Part shown: piece by piece, positions 12,029 through 29,830 of the stretch
Position numbering within the stretch: the stretch's first letter is position 1
How the letters are laid out: each line of letters opens with the position of its first letter
Source: Pseudomonadota bacterium
GTDB lineage: Bacteria; Pseudomonadota; Gammaproteobacteria; Burkholderiales; Burkholderiaceae_C
Direction: 5' to 3'
Assembly (NCBI GenBank): GCA_030538605.1
Contig: JAUNTQ010000001.1
Coordinates: 111,885 to 172,549 of the forward strand
DNA length: 60,665 nt
Translations under genes and position numbers: made by a program
Notes under the pieces: generated by a model
Databases searched by the model: none
What the model was told of the DNA's origin: nothing
Seen by the model: only the letters and a program-made list of their open reading frames with translations

Positions 12029-12933
12029 ACACCCCCGACCCCCGCCCGGACTTCGCCGCCTGGAGCCAGGCCCAGCTGACCCGCGTGGAAGACGCGCTCA
12101 CCGCCTGGGTACCGGCCGATGCGCCTGCGGGCCTCGGCCAGGCCATGCGCTACGCCGTGCTGGACGGCGGCAAGCGCCTGCGCCCGCTGCTGGTGCTGGC
12201 CGCGTGCGAAGCCGTGCAGGGCCAGCCGCACGCGGCCTTGCGCGCGGCCTGCGCGGTGGAGCTGATCCATGCCTACTCGCTGGTCCACGACGACATGCCG
12301 TGCATGGACAACGACGTGCTGCGCCGCGGCAAGCCCACCGTGCATGTGCAGTTTGGCCAGGCGCAGGCGCTGCTGGCGGGCGATGCGCTGCAAGCGCTGG
12401 CGTTCGAGCTGCTGACGCCGGATGAAGCGCAAGTGCCCGCCGCGATGCAGGCCGCGCTGTGCCGCCTGCTGGCACGCGCTGCCGGTGGCGAAGGCATGGC
12501 TGGCGGCCAGGCCATCGACCTGGCGAGCGTGGGCAAGCCCCTGACCGAGCCCGAGCTGCGCGCCATGCACCGCCTGAAGACCGGCGCGCTGCTGCAAGCC
12601 AGCGTGCGCATGGGTGCGGCCTGCGCGCCCGCTGACCTGCCTGCGGCCACCCTGGCCGCGCTGGATGACTACGGCGCGGCCATCGGCCTGGCGTTTCAGG
12701 TGGTGGATGACGTGCTGGACGTCACTGCCGATTCTGCCGCTTTAGGCAAGACGGCGGGCAAGGACGCCGCCGCCGACAAACCCACCTATGTCTCGCTGCT
12801 GGGCCTGCCCGCGTCCGAGGCGCTGGCCGATGAACTGCTGGCGCAGGCGCACCGCGCGCTTAACGCCACCGGCCTGCCCGATTCCGCACGCCTGCGCGCC
12901 CTGGCCGATCTGGTCGTGAACCGCAAGAACTGA
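12025..12933 (+). CDS. ispA: Farnesyl diphosphate synthase (geranyltranstransferase)
   Basis: This 302-residue prenyltransferase condenses isopentenyl diphosphate with dimethylallyl and geranyl diphosphates. The first aspartate-rich motif is DDMPCMDND (89-97) and the second DDVLD (228-232). GGKRLRP at 48-54 binds diphosphate. It lies between xseB, which it overlaps by 4 bases, and dxs, the first enzyme of the MEP pathway, forming the classical isoprenoid cluster. The 184-bp repeat begins directly after its TGA stop and separates it from dxs. Confidence 0.96.
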   Translation: MNTPDPRPDFAAWSQAQLTRVEDALTAWVPADAPAGLGQAMRYAVLDGGKRLRPLLVLAACEAVQGQPHAALRAACAVELIHAYSLVHDDMPCMDNDVLRRGKPTVHVQFGQAQALLAGDALQALAFELLTPDEAQVPAAMQAALCRLLARAAGGEGMAGGQAIDLASVGKPLTEPELRAMHRLKTGALLQASVRMGAACAPADLPAATLAALDDYGAAIGLAFQVVDDVLDVTADSAALGKTAGKDAAADKPTYVSLLGLPASEALADELLAQAHRALNATGLPDSARLRALADLVVNRKN

Positions 12934-13117
12934 AATGAAACATGACTTCGCTGCGCTCCATGACTGGCGCTGGCGCGCCATGACAAATGACAAATGCATC
13001 GTGCACACCGATGTCGCGAGTCATTTGTCATGCGCTCGCCAGAGCGCAGTCATTCGTCATCGCGCACCGCTGGCGTTTCATGCCATGCGGGTAGTGCGCA
13101 GCGCTATGGATAACTGA
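12934..13117 (+). repeat. 184-bp stop-start junction element with 60-codon ORF, copy B
   Basis: The element begins immediately after the ispA TGA and ends TGA one base before the dxs ATG (13119). It contains an ORF from 12935 to 13117 (MKHDFAALHD..., RWRAMTNDK, HLSCA, HRAPLAFH, ending MDN) in stop-N-ATG contact with both genes. ATGACAAATGAC and GTCATTTGTCAT inside it form a perfect inverted repeat. By eye the copy is identical to those at 23203-23386 and 23387-23570. Whether the ORF is translated is unknown. Confidence 0.85.
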
Positions 13118-13118
13118 C

Positions 13119-15023
13119 ATGCCCACGAACCTTCTCGAATCCATTCAAAGCCCTGCCGATCTGCGCCGCCTGCCGCGCACACAACTCAAGAGCCTGGCCG
13201 ACGAGCTGCGCGAATGCGTGCTGCACAACGTGGCGCGCACGGGCGGGCACCTCAGCTCCAACCTGGGCACGGTGGAGCTGACCATCGCGCTGCACTACGT
13301 GTTCAGCACGCCCGACGACCGCCTGGTGTGGGACGTGGGCCACCAGACCTACCCGCACAAGATCCTCACCGGCCGGCGCGAGCGCATGCCCACGCTGCGG
13401 CAGTCGGGCGGCATCTCGGGCTTTCCGCGCCGCGAAGAAAGCGAATACGACACCTTCGGCACCGCGCACTCGTCCACCAGCATCAGCGCCGCCTTGGGCA
13501 TGGCCGCCGCCGCGCGGCACAAGGGCGAAGACCGCAAGGCCGTGGCCATCATCGGCGACGGCGCCATGACGGCGGGCATGGCCTTCGAGGCGCTGAACAA
13601 CGCGGGTGTGGAGCGCGATGCGCGCCTGCTGGTGGTGCTCAACGACAACGACATGTCCATCAGCCCGCCCGTGGGCGCGCTCAACCGCTACCTGGCGCAG
13701 CTGATGAGCGGCGGCTTCTACGCCGCCGCCAAGAACGTGGGCAAGACCATGCTCGGCCCCGTGCCGCCGCTGTTCGAGCTGGCCAAACGGCTGGAGCAAG
13801 GCGCCAAGGGCATGGTGGTGCCCGCCACGCTGTTCGAGAAGTTCGGCTTCAACTACATCGGCCCCATCGACGGGCACGACCTGGATTCGCTCATCCCCAC
13901 GCTCGAGAACATCCGCGACCGCATGGCCGCGCAGGAGGGCCCGCAATTTCTGCACGTGGTCACCAAAAAGGGCCAGGGCTACAAGCTGGCCGAGGCCGAT
14001 CCCGTGGCCTACCACGGGCCGGGCAAGTTCGACCCCGCCATCGGCCTGGTCAAGCCCGCTGCCGCGCCCCGGCAGACCTTTACCCAGGTGTTCGGCCAGT
14101 GGCTGTGCGACATGGCCGAGCAGGACGAGCGCCTGGTGGGCATCACCCCCGCCATGCGCGAAGGCTCGGGCATGGTCGAGTTTCACCAGCGCTTTCCGGG
14201 GCGCTATTACGACACGGGCATTGCCGAGCAGCACGCCGTCACCTTTGCCGCCGGGCTGGCGTGCGAGGGGCTGAAGCCCGTGGTGGCGATCTACTCCACC
14301 TTCTTGCAGCGCGCGTATGACCAGCTCATTCACGACGTGGCCATCCAGAACCTGCCCGTCGTCTTCGCGCTTGACCGCGCGGGGCTGGTGGGGGCGGATG
14401 GGGCCACGCACGCGGGCAATTACGACATCGCCTACCTGCGCTGCATCCCGAATGTGAGCGTGGCCTGCCCGGCGGACGAGCGCGAATGCCGCCAGCTGCT
14501 CACCACTGCATATGAGCAAGACCACCCCGTGGCCGTGCGCTACCCGCGCGGCGCGGGCGTGGGCGTGGCGCCGCTGGCCAATTTGAGCGCGCTGCCCTTT
14601 GGCAAGGGCGAGGTGCGACGCGAGGGCGAGCGCATCGCCCTCCTGGCCTTTGGCACGCTGCTGTACCCCGCGCTGCAAGCGGCTGAGGCGCTGAATGCCA
14701 CGGTCGTCAACATGCGCTGGGCCAAGCCGCTGGATGCCGATCTGCTGGCCCAGGTGGCCGCCACGCACGACGCGCTGGTCACGCTGGAAGAAGGCAGCGT
14801 GATGGGCGGCGCCGGCAGCGCGGTGGCCGAGGCGCTGGCCGCCAGCGGCACGGTGATGCCGCTGTTGCAGCTGGGCCTGCCCGACGCCTTCATCGAGCAC
14901 GGTGACCCGGTGCGGCTGCTGGCGGCGCAGGGGCTGGACGCGCCGGGCATCGAAGCGGCCATCCGCGCCCGCTTTGCCGAGCTGGCCGCGCCCGCGCAGG
15001 TGGGCTTGAAAGTGGTGGGCTGA
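13119..15023 (+). CDS. dxs: 1-deoxy-D-xylulose-5-phosphate synthase
   Basis: This 634-residue thiamine-diphosphate enzyme condenses pyruvate with glyceraldehyde 3-phosphate, opening the MEP isoprenoid pathway and supplying thiamin and pyridoxal synthesis. The cofactor motif GDGAMTAG is at 146-153, the [12 protein letters not shown] segment and [13 protein letters not shown] are typical, and the transketolase pyrimidine domain contains [15 protein letters not shown] and [15 protein letters not shown]. Length is normal. The start follows the 184-bp repeat by one base, and the only ribosome-site-like sequence (GGATAAC) is inside the repeat, so expression may depend on the element. Confidence 0.97.
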
Positions 15024-16320: not shown

Positions 16321-16497
16321 TCAGTCATCCATTGTGCTGACGCGCTGCCCGCGCGGCATGAAACGCCAGGGGTGCGCGATGACGCATGACCGCGCCTTCG
16401 GCGCATGACAAATGACCGGACGCATCCATTGGCACGGCGCCTTTGTCATTCGTCATGGCGCGCCAGCGCTGGTCATGGAGCGCAGCGAAGTCATGTG
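16321..16497 (-). repeat. Stop-start junction element, copy C, invading the M48 gene end
   Basis: This minus-strand copy ends TGA-G-ATG at the phhB start, as other copies do at their downstream genes. Its 5' end is fused to the M48 peptidase frame and encodes that protein's last residues (HMTSLRSMTSAGAP) and its stop. The mini-ORF frame has HDFAALHD, RWRAMTNDK, HLSCA and HRAPLAFH but lacks the initial ATG. The subtype is closest to the copy at 29650. Confidence 0.8.
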
Positions 16498-17796
16498 TCC
16501 TTGCAGCCTCGCGATGCGCTCGCTGGCGGGCGGGTGCGAGTAGTAAAAGCGCACGTACAGCGGGTCGGGCGTGAGCGTGCTGGCGTTGTCCTTGTAGAGC
16601 TTGACCAGGGCGCTGACCAGGTCTGGCGCGCTGGCCTGGGCGGCGGCGTAGGCGTCGGCCTCGAACTCGTGGTGGCGCGAGAGCCGGGCCATGAGCGGCG
16701 AGAGGAAAAAGCTGAACACCGGCACCGTGAGCATGAACAGCAGCAGGGCCAGCGCGTGGTTGGGCACGGCCCCGCCCATGGCGGACGGCAGGTTGGGGGT
16801 GACGCCCAGGCCGGCATAGAACCACGGCTGCGCGGCCAGCCAGCCCAGCAGCGCCAGGCCCGCGAAGCTGAAGGCGAACAGGCCCGCAATGCGCTTGGCC
16901 AGGTGCCTGTGCTTGAAGTGCCCCAGCTCGTGCGCCAGCACGGCCTCGACTTCGGGCGGGCTGAGTTGCTCCAGCAGGGTGTCGAAGAACACCACGCGGC
17001 GCGCTGCGCCGTAGCCGGTGAAATAGGCGTTGGCATGCGCGCTGCGGCGGCTGCCGTCCATCACGAACAGGCCTTTGGCCGCAAACCCGCTGCGCGCCAT
17101 CAGCCGCGTGACGCGCTCTTTCAGCGCATCGTCTTGCAGCGGCTTGAAGCTGTTGAACAGCGGCGCGATGAGGGTGGGGTAGATCACCATCAAGGCCAGG
17201 CTCAAGCCCATCCACGCGGCCCAGGTCCACAGCCACCACAGGCTGCCGGTGGCCTGCATCAGCCACAGCGCGCCCAGCGCCAGCGGCACGCCCAGCGCCA
17301 GGCTGAGCAGGGTGGACTTGAGCAGGTCGGCCAGCCAGAGCTTGAGCGTCATCTTGTTGAAGCCGAAGCGTTGCTCCAGCACGAAGGTGTGGTACAGCCC
17401 CAGCGGCAGCTCGATGGCGCTGCCGATGAAGGAAAACGCCAGCAGCAGCGCCAGCGGCTGCATGAGCGGGCGCGGGCCGATGGCGTCCAGCAGCAGGTTG
17501 TTCAGCCAGTCCAGCCCGCCCAGCAGCGTCCAGGCCAGTAGCACCATGGTGGCCAGCGCCATCTCCAGCAGGCCCACGCGCAGCTTGGCAAGCGTGTAGT
17601 CGGCGGCGCGCCGGTGTGCTTCAAGGCTGATGCTGGCGGCGAATTCGGCGGGCACCGCGCTGCGGTGGGTGGCCACGGCCCGCACCTGGCGCGAGGCCAG
17701 CCACAGCCGGGTGATCACGTTGGCCATCAGCGCCAGGCAGAACACGGCGCTGGTCAGCAGCGCGGGCGACAGGGTGGAGAAGGGCGAGTCGGTCAA
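16453..17796 (-). CDS. M48 family membrane metallopeptidase (Ste24-like)
   Basis: This is an inner-membrane zinc protease of the HtpX/Ste24 class, probably acting in membrane protein quality control. It has an N-terminal domain, several hydrophobic segments, HELGH near residue 289 and the third ligand in HEFEADAYAA near 374. The start is uncertain: TTG at 17796 (TDSPFSTLSPALLTSAV, 447 residues) fits the family N-terminus, while ATG at 17727 (MANVITRLW) would cut it; anything longer would overlap the divergent orn gene. The last 14 residues after RLQG are encoded by repeat copy C, so the native C-terminus has been replaced. Confidence 0.88.
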   Translation of the reverse strand: MTDSPFSTLSPALLTSAVFCLALMANVITRLWLASRQVRAVATHRSAVPAEFAASISLEAHRRAADYTLAKLRVGLLEMALATMVLLAWTLLGGLDWLNNLLLDAIGPRPLMQPLALLLAFSFIGSAIELPLGLYHTFVLEQRFGFNKMTLKLWLADLLKSTLLSLALGVPLALGALWLMQATGSLWWLWTWAAWMGLSLALMVIYPTLIAPLFNSFKPLQDDALKERVTRLMARSGFAAKGLFVMDGSRRSAHANAYFTGYGAARRVVFFDTLLEQLSPPEVEAVLAHELGHFKHRHLAKRIAGLFAFSFAGLALLGWLAAQPWFYAGLGVTPNLPSAMGGAVPNHALALLLFMLTVPVFSFFLSPLMARLSRHHEFEADAYAAAQASAPDLVSALVKLYKDNASTLTPDPLYVRFYYSHPPASERIARLQGHMTSLRSMTSAGAP

Positions 17797-20400: not shown

Positions 20401-20490
20401 AAAACATAGCTGCTTGCGTACGTTTTTAAACGTTTTCATAGTGTTTTATATATGAATTTGTTTAAATACATACGCAAGCAGCTATGTTTT
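20401..20490. repeat. AT-rich long palindrome H3
   Basis: Arms 20401-20440 and 20451-20490 run from AAAACATAGCTGCTTGCGTA to its near complement, with about five mismatches in the inner part. It lies between convergent rsuA and rapZ and could terminate both. Confidence 0.88.
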
Positions 20491-20568
20491 TTTGAAGAAG
20501 TCAGACGTCATGCGATGGCCTTGCCAGAAAGTGCGGCCAGACTTTTTCTGGCAACGACACCGCCGCGC

Positions 20569-23202: not shown

Positions 23203-23386
23203 TCAGTTATCCATAGCGCTGCGCACTACCCGCATGGCATGAAACGCCAGCGGTGCGCGATGACGAATGACTGCGCTCTGGCGAGCGCATGACAAATGAC
23301 TCGCGACATCGGTGTGCACGATGCATTTGTCATTTGTCATGGCGCGCCAGCGCCAGTCATGGAGCGCAGCGAAGTCATGTTTCATT
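23203..23386 (-). repeat. 184-bp stop-start junction element, tandem copy D
   Basis: This copy ends TGA-T-ATG at the recN start and carries the 60-codon ORF 23385-23203, the same peptide as copy B at 12935. It is followed upstream by copies E and F with an exact 184-base period. By eye D, E and B are identical, indicating recent duplication or conversion. Confidence 0.9.
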
Positions 23387-23570
23387 TCAGTTATCCATAG
23401 CGCTGCGCACTACCCGCATGGCATGAAACGCCAGCGGTGCGCGATGACGAATGACTGCGCTCTGGCGAGCGCATGACAAATGACTCGCGACATCGGTGTG
23501 CACGATGCATTTGTCATTTGTCATGGCGCGCCAGCGCCAGTCATGGAGCGCAGCGAAGTCATGTTTCATT
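23387..23570 (-). repeat. 184-bp stop-start junction element, tandem copy E
   Basis: The ORF 23569-23387 encodes the same peptide as copies B and D. Its TGA is separated from the ATG of copy D by one base. The unit length is exactly 184 bases. Confidence 0.9.
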
Positions 23571-23755
23571 TCAGTGGTCCATAGTGCTGGCACGCCGTCT
23601 GCGTGGCATGAAACGCCAGCGGTGCGCGATGACAAATGACCGCGCTCTGTCGAGCGCATGACAAATGACGAACCCCATCCGCCCGCATGGCGGTTTTGTC
23701 ATTTGTCATGGCGCGCCAGCGCCGGTCATTGAGCGCAGCGAAGTCATCTTTCATC
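23571..23755 (-). repeat. Stop-start junction element, diverged tandem copy F
   Basis: This copy begins directly after the livG TGA. Its ORF (23754-23566, 62 residues, MKDDFAALND) keeps RWRAMTNDK, HLSCA and HRAPLAFH but differs in the linkers. One extra base changes the end, so its stop overlaps the ATG of copy E (ATGA) instead of TGA-N-ATG; coupling is still possible. Confidence 0.85.
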
Positions 23756-27814: not shown

Positions 27815-28299
27815 CGCGTGTCTCCTGGAAAGGTTTGTTACATGTTCGGGCCGCACGCATTGTCCGGCACGGGTGCTGCATGTCAGATGGCGACTTTCCC
27901 TGACAGAGGCAGATACATGCAATAAAGTGCGTGTTGACAGGCAGTATAGTTCTTGACTTCAGGGGTGGGCCTAGGGTTTTTCCGGGGCGCAGGCGAGCGT
28001 GCGGGGTGGTGAAGAAAGCCCGGACAAGCCCTTCGCGGCAGCCTCTCGTGCAAGCGTGTGCATGCGCCAGAACCGCAGGGCAGACGCCTTGGGCGGCAAG
28101 TGAGTGAAATGATATTTTGATAGCTGCTTGCGCACGTTATAAAACGTTTTCATATATATGAGTATTTGAAAATGTTTTATAGCATGCGCAAACAGCTATA
28201 TTTTTAATATTTCCTCATGACATTGCAGTCTGCGCGGCGTGGAGGACAATCGCGCATCCGCATGCTGGTGCCCTGACGGGCCCTCACATCGTCTGGTTC
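27815..28299. other. Divergent intergenic region with palindrome H4
   Basis: This 485-base gap separates the leftward Liv operon from the rightward CopD-like gene. It contains an AT-rich patch at 27900-27960 (GGCAGTATAGTTCTTGAC) near which the Liv promoter should lie, palindrome H4 at 28120-28199, and GGACAATCGCGCA at 28244, the same motif as just before orn (17893). No convincing small gene was found. Confidence 0.5.
28120..28199. repeat. AT-rich long palindrome H4
   Basis: Arms 28120-28152 and 28167-28199 begin ATAGCTGCTTGCGCACG and match with few mismatches across a 14-base loop. It lies between divergently transcribed genes, so termination cannot be its only role. Confidence 0.88.
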
Positions 28300-29649: not shown

Positions 29650-29830
29650 TCAGTTATCCATGCGCTGGCGCACCACCTTCACGGTATGAAACGCCAGCGG
29701 TGCGCGATGACAAATGACCGCGCCTTCGGCGCATGACAAATGACCGGACGCACTCACTGGCACGGCATTTTTGTCATTTGTCATGGCGCGCCAGCGCCGG
29801 TCATTGAGCGAAGCGAAGTCATGTTTCATT
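29650..29830 (-). repeat. Stop-start junction element, copy G
   Basis: This copy starts directly after the TGA of the HerA-like gene. Its ORF (29829-29650, 59 residues, MKHDFASLND, RWRAMTNDK, HLSCAEGAVICHRAPLAFH, ending RMDN) ends TGA-A-ATG, but the last ATG here opens only a short frame before upp. Relative to copy B, one codon is deleted after HLSCA, so the frame is kept. Confidence 0.85.

Follow-up and report, generated by a model that had tools for sequence, protein, structure and literature searches.

Insertion sequences of the IS110 family, among them IS621, encode a transposase with DEDD and Tnp20 domains and are directed by a bridge RNA (seekRNA). As described in the cited parts of PMC11208160 and PMC11187229, they have no terminal inverted repeats or target duplication, a non-coding region upstream of the transposase gene (the IS110-type layout of PMC11187229) and two guides that match their junctions. 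The MIRUs of mycobacteria are mobile, insert at start codons and carry an ORF coupled at a -4 spacing; no mobilizer is named in the cited part of that account (PMC12548453). Rickettsia palindromic elements (RPEs), ERIC, BOX and QMITE1 are small mobile repeats with reading frames. RPEs lie in-frame inside genes, and in the parts of PMC10969869 cited here none of the four is described as IS110-derived or junction-targeting. REP/BIME sequences with their RAYTs are abundant palindromic extragenic repeats (PMC2817692), and Coxiella QMITE2 is a target of IS1111, not a derivative of it (PMC5896051). Among the listed papers of the open-licence literature we saw no description of an IS110-derived miniature element, which is weak evidence of absence; the word MITE is absent from the main texts of two IS110 guide-RNA papers, and IS110 from a MITE review.

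We analyzed a stretch of 60,665 nucleotides (the window) from a Pseudomonadota bacterium of the Burkholderiaceae_C (GenBank assembly GCA_030538605.1, contig JAUNTQ010000001.1, positions 111,885 to 172,549). A 184-bp unit lies between genes labeled farnesyl diphosphate synthase (ispA) and dxs by NCBIfam. This unit is very probably a non-autonomous miniature form derived from an RNA-guided insertion sequence of the IS110 family, with word-specific insertion and an in-phase reading frame. It opens directly after the ispA TGA (12931-12933), its closing TGA occupies 13115-13117, and one base separates this TGA from the dxs ATG at 13119. A preliminary description of this DNA had noted the exact fit between stop and start codon, the 60-codon frame beginning one base after the one and ending one base before the other, and related copies elsewhere in the window. 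All three observations hold; the tandem array ends at 23754, where 23755 had been given (Table 1).

Table 1. Features of the 184-bp unit and its relatives in the window.
Feature	Coordinates	Strand	Basis
Probable non-autonomous IS110-type mini-element, 184 bp, ispA-dxs	12934..13117	+	11 identical copies; ends as in the Acidovorax sp. 210-6 IS110
Left end AATGAAAC, reverse complement of the IS110 3' end GTTTCATT	12934..12941	+	8/8 versus autonomous element
Right end, 43 nt, terminal ATGGATAACTGA (reverse complement of the IS110 5' end)	13075..13117	+	39/43 versus autonomous element; family alignment
Possible right-end hairpin TAGTGC-GCA-GCGCTA	13092..13106	+	By eye; slight covariation
Palindromic interior ATGAC...GTCAT, replaceable	12942..13060	+	Occurs without these ends; other mini-elements have different interiors
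60-codon reading frame, from 1 base after the ispA stop to 1 base before the dxs start	12935..13117	+	ORF listing
Left half of target word, CTGA, includes ispA stop codon	12930..12933	+	
Right half of target word, CATG, includes dxs start codon	13118..13121	+	
Three head-to-tail copies ahead of a RecN-like gene (two identical, one at 84%)	23203..23754	-	Gene name by inspection
Diverged copy (82%), end of a peptidase-like gene	16321..16502	-	Gene name by inspection
Diverged copy (84%), left stop codon, right ATG without long ORF	29650..29830	-	

The mini-element resembles the MIRUs in being a short mobile repeat with a small ORF coupled to the flanking gene, which is presumed to soften the insertion (PMC12548453). 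By this likeness of description, the MIRUs would be its nearest functional relative. In contrast to the MIRU overlap of -4 (NTGA), the spacing here is +1 (TGA-N-ATG), and the presumed mobilizer here belongs to an identifiable RNA-guided family. With RPEs, ERIC, BOX and QMITE1 the unit shares small size, mobility and a reading frame, and with REP/BIME sequences abundance and palindromy; its ends differ from those of REP/BIME, and the Y1 genes examined are not flanked by it. Unlike IS110 family members, it carries neither transposase nor guide RNA; further differences are the target, a stop-N-start word, and the antisense position of the IS relative to that word. Whereas QMITE2 is a target, the mini-element is proposed to be an IS110 derivative.

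The window's genome (G000; 92% complete, 234 contigs, some of which stop inside the repeat) contains 11 copies that are 100% identical over 184 bp, plus one at 99%. These 12 near-identical copies occupy 11 sites, with CTGA on the left in 12/12 and NATG on the right at 11/11 sites. About 47 places match the unit genome-wide, many partially and often with the palindromic core alone, an abundance far beyond chance. The core ATGAC...GTCAT also occurs without the IS110 ends (at L033:501-867 and L039, once as three tandem 124-nt units) and looks like a separate repeat family serving as filling. No match to the window was found in Rfam at gathering thresholds. The right-end hairpin is not relied on, since its pairing (94.9%, versus 94.4% in shuffles) barely exceeds that of shuffles and most stem bases are fixed by the search pattern. 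An unrelated AT-rich 86-nt palindromic repeat (ATAGCTGCTTGCG...) is present in two copies in the window (20406-20491 and 28120-28205).

Interiors vary widely from element to element. In a sample of 299 genomes and 141 genera of the family, the right-end consensus GTTTCATGCGCTGCGGGTGGCGCGCAGCGCCATGGANAACTGA was present in 23 genomes and 19 genera, with 56 matches compared to 0 for the reversed pattern. Note that this strict pattern detects just one copy in the window's own genome. Among the matches listed are Acidovorax, Paracidovorax, Achromobacter, Xenophilus, Variovorax, Verticiella, Pigmentiphaga and Ottowia; the few listed beyond Burkholderiales (Planctomycetia, Chloroflexi, Verrucomicrobiales) are probably due to chance.

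An autonomous element shares these ends. Acidovorax sp. 210-6 contains three copies of a 1477-bp element with identical limits, all inserted as CTGA|...|GATG, and the window unit matches it at 8 of 8 nt at the left end and 39 of 43 nt at the right end. The 184-bp unit thus has the termini and the target, CTGA^NATG, of an autonomous IS110 element. Between the shared ends, the 1477-bp element encodes an IS110 transposase on the opposite strand (DEDD_Tnp_IS110 and Transposase_20, Pfam 9.7e-28 and 2.8e-22; NCBIfam NF033542 'IS110 family RNA-guided transposase', 1e-86; IS621 structure, PDB 8wt6, 2.2e-9). Reading of its ends revealed neither terminal inverted repeats nor target duplication, and the transposase gene is preceded by ~237 nt of non-coding DNA in the element type represented by L195. 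Because the ends alone are shared, the case for common descent of mini-element and IS110 is carried by 51 nt together with the target word. In Paracidovorax anthurii, mini-elements are present together with 5' ends of IS110 copies at contig edges. A Variovorax paradoxus plasmid (L380) carries two head-to-tail IS110 copies with a common junction. The preliminary description had offered a mobile mini-gene or a palindromic repeat; a mobile element at stop-start sites was correctly foreseen, an IS110 origin was not among its options.

The non-coding region of the 1477-bp element contains two strings equal to its two junctions, in the published order of target loop and then donor loop (PMC11208160). 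In seven elements, loop-1 strings matched the element's own 5' junction and loop-2 strings its own 3' junction, with a diagonal sum of 60 for each loop. This sum was reached by 2 of 5040 pairings per loop, compared to 524 and 1940 in crossed controls, with two of the seven elements being near-twins and the string windows having been set after inspection of the strings. The second guide string of L348 fits the L195 junction better than its own, and single-sequence folding of the bridge-RNA-like region gave no stability signal (z 0.28).

The target guide of L195, L099, L346, L380 and L348 reads AT-N-TCAG, which is CTGA-N-AT in reverse complement. The guide's N predicts the flank in Acidovorax (3/3), in Paracidovorax anthurii (4/4, guide read in one), in L380 and in L348; it mismatches the element's own site in L346. 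In L346 and in L380 one flank is CTAG, and the L380 site is not ATG. In a sister lineage of IS110 elements in genome G308 (L347, L368, L376 and L377) the target is CCGTATCAG; all four lie in CCGTA^TCAG, and the guide has changed to match. These four copies have similar flanking sequence beside each of them.

A search with PF01548 detected no IS110 transposase in the window's genome, and hence no co-resident transposase for the 184-bp unit, nor was a full bridge-RNA region matching the IS110 found there. No close transposase was found in the genus, the best match (1.2e-9) covering part of the protein. One contig of the window's genome (L385, G000:C142:1-51) opens with 8 bases, GGACACCC, ahead of the right end, as in the autonomous element, which hints at an unassembled autonomous copy. 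A partly deleted relative in the genus, L386, retains the ends and, by eye, the first guide, CGTATCTCAG. No internal IS remnant was seen in the 184-bp unit; by eye, L386 has a guide region, and a remnant is suggested in L122. Both look by eye like internal-deletion intermediates. The mini-element would keep just the ends needed by the recombinase and bridge RNA, 8 nt on the left and 43 nt on the right, around a replaceable palindromic interior, and would be mobilized by these factors in trans.

The insertion target is the DNA word CTGA^N-ATG, not the stop-start junction per se. In 62 elements without tandem neighbors, the 3' flank has a random base at +1, then A in 89% (+2), T in 77% (+3) and G in 82% (+4); across all 174 CTGA-ended right ends, including tandem ones, the corresponding values are 80, 79 and 83%. 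The 5' flank of 67 elements without a left tandem neighbor reads C, T, G and A at 67, 85, 91 and 91%. Note that 79 of 151 right ends were kept in one survey and 78 of 179 in another, the rest having no clear left end, and that bases fixed in the pattern of the right-end searches are not claimed to be conserved.

Insertion occurs without target duplication. CTGA closes 174 of the 179 right ends found by profile, and L022 and the oldest L004 tandem copy have TTGA on the left yet CTGA on the right (whole-element BLAST). Target duplication was therefore rejected, and the right CTGA is part of the element; other examples of left/right mismatch are weaker, as their search pattern required CTGA. The earlier view that the flanking TGA-N-ATG motifs act like a direct repeat fails in the identical copies, in which N is A on the left, and on the right C in 8 cases, T in 2 and A in 1. 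With C at 8 of these 11 young sites, a guide reading ATGTCAG is predicted for a putative IS110 of this strain. The mini-element inserts between CTGA and NATG, the group's bridge RNAs spelling CTGA-N-AT in the target guide. Tandem units meet at CTGA|AATG, and the arrays are consistent with further insertions at the CTGA|AATG or CTGA|NATG junctions made by each copy.

Of the 62 elements without tandem neighbors, 33 are flanked by a left TGA as well as a right ATG; in 16 the TGA alone is present, in 9 the ATG alone, and 4 show neither codon. One or both codons are thus missing in 29/62, which counts against the explanation proposed here. When the 33 clean two-sided sites were compared with ORFs of 80 codons or more, 16 fell between two of them, 10 at the stop of one only, 4 at the start of one only and 3 at neither. 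As a control, CTGANATG words lacking an insertion were taken from 120 related loci, and 8 of 40 lay between two such ORFs (16/33 versus 8/40, Fisher p = 0.013). Thus, there is an enrichment at stop-start sites, as would follow from harm done by insertions elsewhere, and the word remains primary: the location of the copies follows from target word and selection. Since the word contains a stop codon (TGA) and a start codon (ATG), tight stop-start junctions would receive many of the insertions that are tolerated.

Empty junctions in congeners confirm mobility; a comparison of occupied and empty ispA-dxs sites had been proposed in the preliminary description. Counting congeners with both flanks, the ispA-dxs junction is empty in 15 of 17; G014 has its own element with a different interior (L250), and G007 a 77-nt insert (L251) that ends like a degenerate right end. 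G014 and probably G007 represent separate invasions of the junction, which may be a hot spot. The 15 empty junctions comprise 6 with TGA-N-ATG and 9 with spacers of 2 or 3 nt. At the L011 site, between ABC-transporter genes (livG-livF by inspection), 8 of 15 congeners have TGA-N-ATG, 1 has TAA-N-ATG, 3 have 2-nt spacers and 3 carry other sequence, 14-62 nt long. Both flanks of the L004 site were present in none of the congeners. At the L003 site, stop and start codons overlap in 20 of 24 congeners (19 TGATG, 1 TAATG) and a bare TGA-N-ATG occurs in 0/24, which counts against a simple TGA-N-ATG rule for empty sites. L007, a young copy, lies out of frame inside the coding end of a conserved gene; the upstream protein is conserved in four relatives, where it runs 9 to 13 residues past the junction, and the target word is present in 0/4 of them. 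Of the proposal that a mobile element targets coupled stop-start junctions, mobility and the frequent location at such junctions stand; with the word as target, and L007 inside a gene, the junction itself does not.

We next consider the reading frame. In 58 of 59 clusters counted for interior openness, the frame starting with ATG or GTG at the left end is open through the interior in 55, compared to 32 and 34 for the other forward frames and 42, 44 and 35 for the reverse frames (shuffles, 39.9 ± 3.2). By interior group, it is open in 74 of 77 elements versus 42 and 31 for the other forward frames; the seven groups are a small sample, some possibly related (the start of L069 resembles the largest group), and L185 was dropped as a chance match. 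Among 67 distinct sequences, element length modulo 3 equals 1 for 48, 2 for 15 and 0 for 4 (59:15:4 over all 78); in the Acidovorax-type subfamily, with its varied lengths, the ratio is 26:8:1. Most lengths therefore give the phase that closes in TGA-N-ATG, while the rare phase 0 would fuse the element frame to the downstream gene.

The frame might be incidental to the same IS110-type mini-element, with GC-rich palindromic interiors containing few stops and translation not being selected. We regard this as a serious possibility, if somewhat short of an even one, because the independence of the interiors is limited: there are just seven interior groups, and in three of them the +1 frame is also mostly open. 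Interior GC is 72%, distinct lengths modulo 3 are distributed only 16:10:4, and the G014 subfamily (4:5:1) shows no phase preference. Differences between equal-length relatives at codon positions 1, 2 and 3 number 403, 346 and 222 (overlapping pairs, no p-value), with no excess at third positions; the peptide is thus not conserved. Early stops occur in 5/59 clusters, among them diverged copies of the window's genome. The frame is lost in the diverged L025, L038 and L014 and kept in L017 and L024, which we read as selection when an insertion is accepted rather than later upkeep. The openness of the left-end frame relative to the other forward frames and the skewed length phase argue against an incidental frame, a label that the preliminary description had attached to its palindromic-repeat option and that looks too weak in view of the openness. 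An antisense ORF of ~490 codons spans the three autonomous IS110 elements L195, L346 and L380; among relatives, L347 has 7 stops, L382 has 10, L381 has one near the end, and L348 has another length phase. Stops in an ORF codon-aligned antisense to a transposase require rare codons, and being aligned in this way the antisense ORF is considered no more than suggestive.

The mini-element recreates TGA-N-ATG at both ends and carries an in-phase open frame between them. Ribosomes should therefore be able to stop, re-initiate within the element and do so once more at the gene that follows. We infer a translation-transparent insertion of this kind, in which translational coupling would be preserved and open frames would be selected; this is possibly how operons tolerate such insertions.

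Alternatively, the repeat could be older and independent, with an IS110 merely inserted into it, as IS1111 is into QMITE2 in Coxiella; IS110/IS1111 elements are known to target repeats (PMC5896051). We consider this improbable. The L195 left end is just 16 nt from the transposase stop codon, the guides match exactly these outer junctions, and the 1477-bp limits are identical in three copies, each at a different CTGA|GATG site. By eye, L122 and L386 moreover resemble products of internal deletion.

A single-strand (HUH) element of the IS200/IS605 or REP/RAYT type inserting 3' of CTGA would be compatible with the lack of terminal inverted repeats and duplication, the possible subterminal hairpin and the fixed 5' flank. 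A fixed 3' ATG flank is not expected of an HUH element. Moreover, the gene between the ends is an IS110 transposase, not Y1, and the ends are absent from all 12 Y1 transposase loci in ten genomes; this model was rejected as very unlikely. The Y1 (RAYT-like) genes of the window's genome (L045:1129-1866 and L046:1363-1896) have distinct repeats of their own, GATCTGACCCCAATT and GTAGGCTGGGT...CCCAGC.

Equally hard to credit is the mobile mini-gene first suggested, with a 60-aa peptide as the selected function: a complete ORF does reach from one gene's edge to the next, but the proposed check for codon constraint gave the position counts above, the peptide has no match in Pfam or NCBIfam, and peptides differ by eye between related elements, so peptide function was rejected and the peptide is probably functionless.

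In conclusion, the IS110-derived reading ties abundant repeats of the Burkholderiales to an RNA-guided recombinase and suggests that trans-mobilized IS110 derivatives exist. A transposon guide can be tuned to a word of coding syntax that marks survivable sites. The MIRU idea of mobile ORFs that preserve coupling becomes testable beyond mycobacteria, with a mobilizer that can be named. More tentatively, with chances just short of even, a Burkholderiales lineage of bridge-RNA IS110 elements may have specialized on the stop-N-start word and feed trans-mobilized mini-elements that are selected for translational transparency. Such mini-elements would restore the coupling junction on either side and retain an open frame in the correct phase whatever their interior. 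If so, RNA-guided target choice and frame-keeping would together make operon interiors a safe habitat.
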